From Apteryx mantelli (Eukaryota; Chordata; Aves; Apterygiformes; Apterygidae), in NCBI RefSeq assembly GCF_036417845.1, contig NC_089978.1, positions 128,928,183-128,992,182 of the forward strand: DNA of 64,000 bases, written 5' to 3'. This document shows positions 33,057 to 45,611 of the stretch, piece by piece. Within the stretch, counting starts at the first letter, position 1. Each line of letters begins with the position of its first letter. The notes beneath the pieces are model-generated. The model did no database searches. It had not been told where the DNA came from and worked only from the letters and a program-made list of their open reading frames with translations. A program made the translations under genes and the position numbers.

Positions 33057-33271
33057 TCAGTGCCAGCCCCATGATCGGCAGCAGAGGATCTTGAGGAAGG
33101 CTTTGCGGAAGTCAGTGTTGAAGGTTGTATAGATGATGGGGTTGAGGGCACTGTTCACATAACCAAGCCAGGTGCTGGCGCTGTAGAGTGCTGGGGGCAC
33201 ATGACAGGAAGGGCAGTGGGCATTCAGGATGTGAATCAAGAAGAACGGCAGTCAGCAGACTATGAATGCCC
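33057..33271 (-). pseudogene. DRD3: DRD3 exon 6 with in-frame TGA in TM6
   Basis: 215 nt, acceptor AACTCAG. It reads [20 protein letters not shown], then [38 protein letters not shown] and ILCC, with extra RSWGWH before TGA (33059-33057). The premature TGA (33254-33252) sits at the toggle-switch tryptophan of CWxP. Confidence 0.94.
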
Positions 33272-33639
33272 CTGAGTTTAAAGAGGATAGAAAAAAACCA
33301 CATGATTTTAGAGAATTTACCACTTGGAAAAAGGCCTGCATCTATGCCCTCTTCCTCCATCCTATTGCCACTTCTATGCAGCCTATTGTGCACTTGTCTG
33401 TGCTTGGTAAACACTGTAGATGAAGTTTGTTCCTGATGCAGAGGGACTTTGCAAGAGCACAGGCCTCCTTAGGATCAGTTATGTGAATTAATGGAGCTTC
33501 AGGGAGGACTGAAATGTGATCTGGCGATAGACAGCAGCAAGTGGCCACAGCTTGGAAGGAAAGACTACTGCCTTCTTAGCCTTTTTAGTAAGTTATGATA
33601 AGGGCTGCATTATCTCCCTGCTACTACTGAGTTAACTAA

Positions 33640-33800
33640 GGGAAGCAGTGTGTGTGGTGACCATGACAGGTGACTGGGGCTCCGGGCTCCCAGGTTCTCC
33701 ATCCAGCTCTACAACCTAGTTCCTCTGCTGCTCTGTGCCTCAGTTTCCCCTTCTGTAACTGGAGTTAAGAGCTGGTGCATGTACATGTGTGGAAACTTAA
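33640..33800 (+). repeat. Ancient MIR SINE remnant in DRD3 intron 5
   Basis: Has the MIR consensus pattern: a tRNA-related start, GGGCTCCCAGGTTC, then TCTGTGCCTCAGTTTCCCCT and TCTGTAACTGG. It lies between DRD3 exons 5 and 6. Confidence 0.65.
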
Positions 33801-34151
33801 GATAGTTCCAGCTTCATAATAATGCATAGCTCACTAAAGTATCAGAGAAAAAGAGAAACAGGTGTTGGCTGTTGCTACCTCAGAGGGCTTGTTGGCCACT
33901 GATTTAAAACAAGAGAGTAATAAACTGTAGCAGAATAAAACACTGATGCGCTTGGTTCTCAGCATTTGTGAGTGTTAACCTAGATTCCTAAATGTCCCAT
34001 CCTTGTCCCTTGTGAGTTTGTGGAGCAGTGACAGCTGAAGTCTGGGCCTGGCTTTTTTTAATCTCCATATTGTGTTAGGAGAGATTCCTGTACTTGCAAG
34101 TCCCAAAGCATCACCCCTTGCACCCCATTACATAGAGCAGTTCTCACTCAC

Positions 34152-41404: not shown

Positions 41405-41605
41405 TGCTGCTTTTTATCCAGCAATCTCAAAGCACGTCGCAAGTATTAATTGAATGAATCCTCGCAACTGCCTGGGTGAGGTGGATGGTCAAACATTATT
41501 CTCCTCTTACAGCTGATAAGACCAAAGCACAGACAGATGAGCTGATACAATCTCTCATTACCACACATTGCACATGCCGCAGAACTGGGAATAGAGTCTA
41601 AGATG
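41405..41605 (-). repeat. Ancient amniote SINE (MIR/L3-type) remnant
   Basis: Pattern AATCTCAAAGCACGTC, AATCCTCGCAACTGCCTGGG, GTGAGGTGGATGG, TTATTCTCCTCTTACAGCTG, CAAAGCACAGACAG, CAGAACTGGGAATAGAGTCT. This matches widespread old amniote repeats. Located in a DRD3 intron. Confidence 0.6.
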
Positions 41606-44600
41606 AAATTCTAGTTCTATCAAAGACAATGGTAAAGCTCCATATAGACTATTGAGGTCAGGCTCTCACCTCATCATCTTTCTTGATGACCAGTCTGCTT
41701 TATCCACAAGATTGCAGTATTGCTATATTTAGCTTTCCAACACTTCAGAAAGTCTTCCAATTAAAAAAAAAAATTGTGCATTCATAAACTTATGTAAATT
41801 GATTACTCTCCTGAACCCTTAAAAATAAACAGAAGAATCTCTGTAAATTGTATTTCTACAGTGATGCCATGTTTAGGTGTCCATGGGTAAGAACGAATAA
41901 AATATGAACAGAAAGTTGCATCAGATCATGACAGGCATCTAAGTAGCTGTGCATCTAAGCATGTTCACTTAACATTTTGTGTTTAAGAAAACCACCTTTT
42001 TGGGTGTGCTATTAGCTTCCTGCAGCTCTGAAATCACTGCTTACACTTTTGCATGGCAAGAATAACTAAGAGCCTGCATGCTGTCAGACGAGCTGACAAC
42101 TAGTAAACTGCTAAGCTGCAATAACTGAGTTGTTTGCACTCACTTTGACGGCACTCTAGTGAGGTTTTTGAACTCAAAGAGGAGTTGCAGGTCTTGCTGA
42201 TCCATCCTGAGAGCCACAGAAGAGGAGAGCGTGTTACTCACAAGTGCTCTGAGCAGAGCTGTGGACTGGACACCGGAGACAACCATCTTCTGAAGCTTTT
42301 TTCCCCCTTTGGAGGTAGAACTGGATGTTGTGAGAAGACTGAGAAGGATGTTACAGGCCATGTTGCTCCATGTTCTCCTCCATTTACTATGTGTTGACTG
42401 TAAGGAATGATGGTATTTAATGCTATCAAACTCCAGCAGCCAGGATGCCTATTGTTACCATCTTAAAAACCTCTGTGGGCTTCAGTAGTTGTGCCAGCCA
42501 TAGCATCAGAGGTCAGTGAATCACTGGGGAAGCAGTACTGGTATAGTAGACAATACCCATTGACCCCAAAAAATTGCTAGGCGCTGTGCTGATAGCGTTT
42601 TGAGCCAGAAACTCCATTAGTTGGAGATCAGGATTTTGAGATTGTAAAATGTTTCTGTGATTGATCTATCACAGCCTTCCCAAAAGACCTCTCAGAAAGA
42701 GACAGTCCTAGCCTACATGACTAATAACAAGAAAAAATTCGTGGAGAAGGTCCAGGCCATAGATGGCTCTAAAATCTAAGTGTAAAGCACAAAGTTCACA
42801 TATGACATTTAAATCTTAAATCTTAATTTAATCTTAAAACCATCCACTTTTAGCTTCTCCATAAATAATGACCAGGTATCAGCTGTCTGAATTGGCAAGC
42901 ATTCAGCAGAGAAGTAGGTATTGTACAAGATTTTGGAGACTGAATGATTTCTTGGGAATTTCTATGCCCATATCATACCAAAGCATGATACCATTTCCTC
43001 TTCATCTGTAGCATCATGGATTCCATAAACACCAGCAAACACTAAATCACTTTGGGGACTTTTTGTTTGTTTGCTTTTTAAATCTTAGTATTGCTACAGT
43101 CCTAAAGTCTAGGGCTGGGAGTGGTAGATTGCGTTTGAGAGGTGTGGTTCTTCTCCCTCTTGTTTTTAGAGAATCTGCCATCTCTTGGATCAGCCACTTT
43201 GATTCTCTCTCCTCCAGAAATGGAAATGAATCTTAGATGTTGCTCCAAACATGACTAGGGAGCGGACCTACCATCGCGCTTGCAAACTGTGCCCATAATA
43301 CTGTATGGGAGCAGAGCCTACTCTGCAGATGTGCCTCAGTTCCACTGTCTCCACAGTGGTAAGTCTTTTCCAATGCAAAGCATATTGTTATTTCATTAAT
43401 GTTTGGAAGACACTTGAGGTGATGGAATATTCTTGTATGAGCAGTCTGAAATAAAATTTAACTTTATATCTGTTGGTTGCTATCAAAATTTCTAGCCTAA
43501 TTCTGTATTTTTTTTGGGGGGGGTCCCCCTTTTATACCTTGCTTTTTATCATTCTTTCCTTCTTTGTTGCCTTCTTTTCATCTTCCCCCTTCCATTCCCC
43601 TGAGATAACACAAGTGAGTTGTATACAGCTGTACTCCTGACCACCTCCAGGACTGTTCTACACAGATTAGTCTAAATGTTGCTATTGTCTTTACTAGGAA
43701 CATCATCACACATGCAGTATCACGGTGCTCTCTTTGTTCTTTCACTCCACAGTGATGCTCTACAGACATAATTAACCATCAGTGCCCTTACTAATAATGC
43801 TTACAGACAGAGCAGATCCCTAATTTCTCTTAATTGCAGTCTCACTGAGAGTGTGCAATGGACACAGTTAAGGAGAGCGACTTGGATTAACATAAGGGAA
43901 ATGCCTGTGTTCAGTGCCAAAGCTTAGAGTTGCATTGGCTCTTCAACACAGTCCAGTGGCAGAGGAGAGCTGTCAGCCACTGCCTGTCCCCTGCTGCCTG
44001 ATCAGATCTCTTTGCATGTGCATAACAGGTCTGGCATTTACTGGTATTGTCCTATATTATTCTACTTCCTATTGATATGCTGCACAGTCCATATGCATGT
44101 GGCAGATTCCTCTCTGCTCCTGCTTTCCTTTGCAGGAAAGAGGTCAGCCAAAGGTGGGCAGCTGTCATCAGAATATTTAACCTACTCTTCAGCCTGATTC
44201 TAGCTTGCCCCTCACAGAAAGAGCATGAAGCTTCAAAGAGATCATGGCTCAGAGGCTTATTCTGTCTCTGTTAGCATGATAATGGGGTACTAGGGCTCAG
44301 CCGCAAGCTTAAGACTGATAGACATTCACTCTAATTTTTCTAGATCTACCAATTTACTTGGATTAGTGTAAAAATGGTGATGATAAAAGATAAAAATGTC
44401 AGCTGTAGCATACCTTCATGGATTTACTTTAGTAAAAATGTTTCCTCCAGGAGTGGCTTCAGTAATTCAGGATTTTGCTGCAGTGTATGGGGAATTTGGA
44501 TTCCATCTTTGCTGCCCTGTATCTGATGGCGTTGTTCATACTGTGCATAGTCATTCCAGTACATTTTTACACCAGCCCAATGTTCAAAGACCAGGGAAAT

Positions 44601-45319
44601 GAAGATTAAGCCCCTGAGGGTGTTATGAATCCTTTGAAGTTATTGTGAAAATGCTCATATGACTTCAAGAGATTTTGGAGCAAGCTCTTCACGTCTATGT
44701 CAGCCTGCCTGGGGAATGTTGCATGGAGCTGACCTAATGACATGGACATGAAGGCTCTTAAACTTCTCAGGAGATGAGGATTTGACTGTTCTCGCCCGTT
44801 TTCTGGCCAGCAGAAGCAGGGGTTGATCTGGACTCTAAGATACCTTCCCGTAAGATATTTCTACCCCCTTGCCTCCCCTGCCACTCCTGATACATCATGG
44901 TGCTCACAAGCAACCCTCCTGGCAGATGGAGTCAGCTTCAAAGATGCTCAGATGAAAGTGGGTATTAGCACATCAGGACCCACAGTCTACATTACTGGCT
45001 ATCACCCAGCTGTCATTTAAGCTCTAAGAGTCTGTGCTATGCCAGGAAGAGCTAGGCTCAGGGTATCTGCTGATGGACTGGGTTGCGATGTGTTTGTCCT
45101 GCATGTGTCTGGTCTACAAGGGCCACCTGTGTGACACTGTGGGCTGCCACCCTCCCCACAAGTGCTCTAGAGCTGGCTGGGTGGTGAAAATGTGATTGAC
45201 CTTTATCTGGTACTTGGTGTAGTCTCAGTCCAGAGTTGGCCTATGCAGAGAGCAGGCACTAATGCTAGTGAACCCATACCACAGGTCAGCTCTGCTAATC
45301 TTTCCTGAGACGTACTCAC

Positions 45320-45611
45320 CTCCAGGTACACCACCCACGGCATCACCAAAGTGGCCACCAGCAAGTCCGCCACTGCCACGCTCACCACGAGGTAGTTTGT
45401 TGTGGTTTGCAAGGTGTGTTGCCTTAGAACTGCCAAGCAGACCAGTACGTTCCCAAAGATGATGGCCAAAATCAGGATGCAGTAGCAGAGGGCATAGTAG
45501 GCATGGGAGTGCGGCAGGTCGTGCTCTGTAGCATTATCTGCCTCACAGGGGATGGAGTAGGTGGTGTTAAGATGACTGCTGGCTCTTGTGAAGAGTGCCA
45601 TGGGGATGTCG
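45320..45611 (-). pseudogene. DRD3: DRD3 first coding exon (intact)
   Basis: The acceptor CTTTTTTCAG ends at 45612 and the ATG is at 45601-45599. 94 codons follow with a GTGAGT donor at 45319. Residues 1-35 form the extracellular tail with N-glycosylation sequons at Asn12 (NTT) and Asn23 (NAT). TM1 ([19 protein letters not shown]) and TM2 ([20 protein letters not shown]) are well preserved. Confidence 0.95.

Follow-up and report, generated by a model that had tools for sequence, protein, structure and literature searches.

Introduction

Lineage-specific losses of dopamine receptors have been described in several vertebrate groups, and the D3 receptor is among those concerned. Drd3 is reported to be lost in several amphibians and in the platypus, and a Drd3 pseudogene was described in the lizard Pogona vitticeps (PMC12198306, accessible text). 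In birds, loss of DRD1C and DRD1E and a possible decay of DRD4 were reported, whereas DRD2 and DRD3 were called maintained, DRD3 thereby being one of the two D2-class receptors stated as kept in all birds surveyed (Haug-Baltzell et al. 2015, PMC4595791, accessible text). In the kiwi itself, inactivation of two other G-protein-coupled receptors (GPCRs), the opsins OPN1MW and OPN1SW, was proposed and dated at 30-38 million years (Le Duc et al., PMC4511969, accessible text). Here we analyze a stretch of 64,000 nucleotides from the kiwi Apteryx mantelli (NC_089978.1, positions 128,928,183 to 128,992,182, assembly GCF_036417845.1; hereafter the window), which holds the DRD3 gene of this bird, and our analysis indicates that this single DRD3 gene has very probably been inactivated in place.

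Compared with the above systems, kiwi DRD3 shares with the Pogona pseudogene an in-frame stop and a single phase-0 intron in the region of the third loop, but the lizard gene also lacks about half of its coding sequence, whereas the bird gene keeps six exons and their splice sites (PMC12198306). The amphibian and platypus losses likewise tell that D3 is dispensable in some vertebrate lines; in those animals, according to the accessible text of the same study, no Drd3 sequence was found, whereas kiwi DRD3 is a readable relic in which the time and order of the lesions are open to study. With regard to the bird survey, it is DRD3 that is broken in the kiwi, while DRD4 and four D1-class genes are open. 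As for the kiwi opsins, they concern colour vision and were called inactive from missense changes, whereas DRD3 encodes a receptor of the brain and is hit by stops and a frameshift.

Three lesions in the coding sequence

The DRD3 gene lies on the minus strand at 33057-45601, and its reading frame is interrupted by a TAG in exon 2, a 2-nt deletion in exon 3 and a TGA in exon 6 (Table 1). Both stops stand where human D3 has a Trp codon, and both of these codons are TGG in DRD2 and DRD4 of the same genome. The spliced sequence has 1294 nt, a length that is divisible by three once two Ns are added, but not before. A ribosome would read 99 codons of the present sequence and stop behind transmembrane helix (TM) 2, and the in-frame stops of the unrepaired mRNA are those at codons 100 and 413 only; because of the deletion in exon 3, the TGA in exon 6 lies outside the frame in which a ribosome would be. 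A first-pass annotation of the window had claimed that the frame is broken three times. The TAG and the deletion are confirmed at their positions, and the TGA is present as well, but not in the frame that is followed after the deletion. Three lesions in DRD3, against DRD2 and DRD4 that are open to their proper stops, are more than chance. The original stop may also have been lost: human D3 and D2, like DRD2 of the kiwi genome, end at a Cys, and kiwi DRD3 runs six codons further.

Ways around the lesions at the RNA level were also considered. Skipping one to three of exons 2-5 gives 14 combinations, none of which reads to the end or yields a receptor, the longest open run being 215 of 281 codons. 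A scan by sequence that reached up to 40 nt from exon 3 and from the acceptor of exon 4 found cryptic sites with the needed shift (for exon 3, a donor at -37 plus acceptors at +28 and +34; for exon 4, acceptors at -38 and -35), and none of these candidates removes the UAG.

Table 1. Positions in the window of the DRD3 coding exons, the lesions and the neighbouring features (TM, transmembrane helix; ICL and ECL, intracellular and extracellular loop).
Feature	Positions	Strand	Remarks
DRD3 coding exon 1	45320-45601	-	start codon, N-terminus, TM1-TM2; frame open; 7tm_1 match
DRD3 coding exon 2	38113-38225	-	TM3
DRD3 coding exon 3	36684-36824	-	ICL2-TM4; 2 nt short
DRD3 coding exon 4	35384-35580	-	ECL2-TM5-start of ICL3; open in ancestral frame
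DRD3 coding exon 5	34152-34497	-	ICL3-start of TM6; open in ancestral frame
DRD3 coding exon 6	33057-33271	-	TM6-TM7-C-terminus
Lesion 1, TAG for Trp codon (W96, human D3)	38208-38210	-	exon 2; first stop
Lesion 2, 2-nt deletion in short TC run GGGTCTCTCATGATC	36750-36765	-	exon 3
Lesion 3, TGA for Trp of CWLP motif (W331, human D3)	33252-33254	-	exon 6
Possible fourth lesion, ancestral stop lost	33057-33077	-	six extra codons (RSWGWH), then TGA
QTRT2, synteny anchor adjoining DRD3	17656-21192	+	two exons seen, open
CpG island 5' of DRD3 exon 1	47601-48600		GC 0.70, CpG observed/expected 0.73

Gene structure and identity

In agreement with the annotation, six coding exons with canonical splice sites are found, all five introns being GT-AG, and with five introns kept the gene is not a processed copy. 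The syntenic position also holds, since DRD3 adjoins QTRT2, which we take to be its neighbour in the human genome too. When the protein is read through the lesions and searched with phmmer against PDB, human D3 chains come at the top with 530 bits, followed by D2 with 419 and D4 with 253 among the best 60 of 128 matches. The exon phases equal those of DRD2 in the same genome (exons of 282, 110, 137, 191, 87, 343 and 194 nt), minus the 87-nt DRD2 exon. Kiwi DRD3 hence has the six exons of the bird pattern, with one phase-0 intron in ICL3 and without the DRD2-type exon 6, an arrangement that every bird and reptile in the data of Peglar and Fryxell is reported to share (PMC12198306, accessible text). 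Kiwi and human D3 agree in 261 of 377 aligned columns (69%), and for zebra finch and human D3 an identity of 66% was published, by a different way of counting (PMC2904815, accessible text).

Upstream of coding exon 1 there is an acceptor-like AG at 45612-45613, and the CpG island farther 5' is a possible DRD3 promoter. A second CpG island (8401-9900; GC 0.68, observed/expected 0.99) is probably the promoter of QTRT2 and of the other neighbour of QTRT2. By eye, a CR1-like fragment was seen at 39297-39833, inside the first coding intron of DRD3.

Search for a second DRD3 and the other dopamine receptor genes

The window sits in a contig of 222.9 Mb, in an assembly of 1.504 Gb, which was searched both with the exon DNA and with the D3 protein (for the latter 98 matches listed, with 97 of 4857 candidates scored). 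Among the matches listed, the DRD3 locus is represented by five of its six exons at 84-97%, exon 3 being without a match of its own, and the next set of D2/D3 type is DRD2 on contig C23 at 58-73%. The annotation had proposed such a search for a second DRD3, and neither search gave another copy at 84-97% among the matches listed.

DRD2 of this genome is open over 447 codons, DRD4 is open over 380 codons with GT-AG introns, and four D1-class genes on C14, C29, C7 and C5, which were taken as a class and not split into DRD1A, 1B, 1C and 1E, are open as well. Of the seven dopamine receptor genes that birds are known to have, only DRD3 is damaged here. In addition, four amine-receptor-like matches outside the dopamine receptors contain one internal stop each (C5:84733132-84733422, C7:25530183-25530476, C17:8065582-8065905 and C22:10348404-10348715), which may reflect matches that extend beyond an exon, as seen for DRD2 and DRD4, or further lesions.

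These observations bear on the question whether assembly or sequencing errors have mimicked the damage of a DRD3 that is in reality intact. The deletion sits in a short TC run, the lesions are read from assembly sequence, and internal stops like those in the four matches would be expected from a faulty sequence, if they are not overrun exon ends. However, errors would have had to strike three times, and in two different ways, in 1.3 kb of coding sequence and to spare the six other dopamine receptor genes, which are open in the same assembly. Two of the three faults, moreover, are simple transitions in non-repetitive sequence, so that we regard this explanation as very unlikely.

DRD3 as a probable unitary pseudogene

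Because the introns are kept, synteny with QTRT2 is preserved, three disabling lesions are present, no other copy is listed and the six relatives are open, the reading of DRD3 as a unitary pseudogene, first put forward in the annotation, is the best one and is supported by our analysis. In this case, one first hit would have removed selection, and the remaining lesions most likely accumulated afterwards. Since its first stop comes at codon 100, far upstream of the last exon junction, the mRNA would be subject to nonsense-mediated decay or would give a non-functional stub of two helices, and D2-class signalling in the kiwi would then rest on D2 and D4.

In spite of this support, several points weigh against a pseudogene. 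The lesions are known from one assembly and one individual, which leaves room for an assembly error or a segregating allele. At positions that are the same in the other three sequences, kiwi D3 is changed in 22 of 211 and human D3 in 25 of 212, the corresponding counts for the two D2s being 6 of 193 and 5 of 192 (loop columns of doubtful alignment are included, and human D3 was used without a short loop stretch); in a hand-aligned core, 16 changes are found on kiwi D3 only versus 10 on human D3 only. The splice sites, the CpG island and the long open ICL3 frame are all retained. What is more, each of the two stops arose by a G-to-A change in a Trp codon. Sites of this kind account for 19% of the opportunity to create a stop, which gives a chance of 0.037 for two of two, and adenosine-to-inosine (A-to-I) editing could in principle reverse both stops, though not the deletion. 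The retained splice sites, CpG island and ICL3 frame would fit a young loss, and would also fit a gene that is kept by something unseen. Strong relaxed selection across the rest of the protein was considered as a further sign of loss, and it is not seen in the counts of invariant positions or of core changes.

The small decay in the rest of the protein is also what one would expect if DRD3 were still polymorphic in the species, the disabled allele being that of the single individual sequenced and functional ones being carried by others. On the other hand, three, perhaps four, lesions on one copy would need time to gather, and a segregating null allele would be expected to carry one. Such an allele seems to us a slim chance, slightly slimmer than that of sequence errors.

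The open frame after the deletion

Downstream of 36760, in exons 3-6, the 2-nt deletion leads into a frame that runs for 256 codons without a stop, while the same frame in DRD2 of this genome has 13 stops. Codon shuffles of DRD3 (n=3000) average 8.3 stops in that frame, and a fraction of 0.0003 of them has one or none. If the UAG were bypassed by a restart at Met 113, 116 or 117, the deletion would join TM3 to this second frame and give a new protein of about 300 residues, and DRD3 would have held an older overlapping coding frame, a scenario to which we attach hardly any probability.

More generally, the locus might still be productive, either by such a restart into the shifted frame or by A-to-I editing of UAG and UGA to Trp, each stop being one edit away from UGG. 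The deletion, however, is beyond repair by editing, a restart would yield no receptor, and the shifted frame was singled out post hoc. Moreover, the corresponding second frame was compared in 18 different single-exon GPCR genes from the loci examined, each with a reading frame of 330 codons or more. It is open for no more than 129 codons in the ten whose GC is below 0.569 (GC of DRD3 is 0.517), whereas GC-richer ones reach up to 361 codons, so the openness may be chance. Because these control frames were picked for being open, they are uninformative on assembly quality and usable for the question of second frames only. We take the openness of the shifted frame as chance until orthologues say otherwise, and a locus that is still productive is extremely improbable.

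Age and lineage of the probable loss

By mutational opportunity, 3.3% of substitutions in the DRD3 coding sequence create a stop. Three lesions need 7-27 million years if the neutral rate is set at 1.2-3.0e-9 per site and year and the indel ratio at 0.05-0.10, both being assumed values, and the Poisson limits across the six settings are 1.4-78. The first hit would thus fall on the kiwi branch, very roughly 7-27 million years ago.

The annotation had stated that D3 receptors are present in other birds, which agrees with the report of DRD3 in 43 of 43 birds, ostrich and tinamou included, in a survey whose presence calls do not necessarily involve inspected frames; therefore the kiwi loss lies within palaeognaths (Haug-Baltzell et al. 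2015, PMC4595791, accessible text). The 42 species that we counted in Table 1 of that survey include ostrich and tinamou, with DRD3 present, and no kiwi. All this fits a gene that was lost along the kiwi branch, whether earlier or later than the divergence of the living species. In the searched literature, which covers few subscription journals and no bioRxiv preprints, no report of DRD3 loss in any bird was found, nor any paper naming 'Apteryx' together with 'DRD3'. The loss in a bird is thus new to the searchable literature, while D3 loss as such is already known elsewhere.

Meaning for dopamine biology

Regarding the consequences, the annotation had emphasized striatal dopamine signalling, which appears doubtful, since in zebra finch and chicken D3 is high in the mesopallium, and the striatum is high in D1A, D1B and D2 (PMC2904815, accessible text). 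If the loss is true, the kiwi would be a natural D3 knockout, in a nocturnal bird dependent on smell and touch. As the relic is readable, the time of loss can be estimated, and one may ask whether the loss is tied to a shift in niche, which is the proposal made for the opsins, and whether the brain regions of D3 were taken over by D2 or D4.

Opsins and other observations

Two of the opsin changes mentioned above were looked up in the present assembly. An opsin exon on C25, presumably of RH2 judging by its sequence, has Lys at 3.49 (AAG CGC TAT), and an exon on C1, which we take to be OPN1SW, has Gly at what we assume to be residue 6.30 (QKVGREVSR). Glu3.49Lys in OPN1MW (RH2) and Glu6.30Gly in OPN1SW were reported in kiwi only (Le Duc et al., PMC4511969, accessible text), and their presence agrees with an Apteryx genome. 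The alpha-A globin of this assembly has its best single-chain match in PDB with 3a59, a chain from ostrich. Besides Glu3.49Lys, the RH2 gene has a TGA at codon 21 in exon 1 (C25:7350293-7350664, C25:7348327-7348554), and the accessible part of the kiwi genome paper gives only missense changes for RH2 (PMC4511969). Rhodopsin at C12:28375723-28376109 carries Asn at the site of Asp83 in bovine rhodopsin (NLAVANLF). A replacement of Asp83 by Asn in rhodopsin is linked with dim-light vision.

Scans of the 64-kb window with Rfam and for tRNA gave 0 matches each, and a search of the assembly with PF00033 gave one decayed nuclear copy on C5 and no mitochondrial contig. A reverse transcriptase frame at 62545-63966, continuing to 64049, runs uninterrupted for 473 codons with an RVT_1 match and a 3' end that we presume to be CR1-like, and this element is a young copy of a long interspersed nuclear element (LINE). 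Finally, a tandem unit of 108 bp is present in two perfect copies at 28051-28267, which is either a very recent duplication or a copy-number variant.

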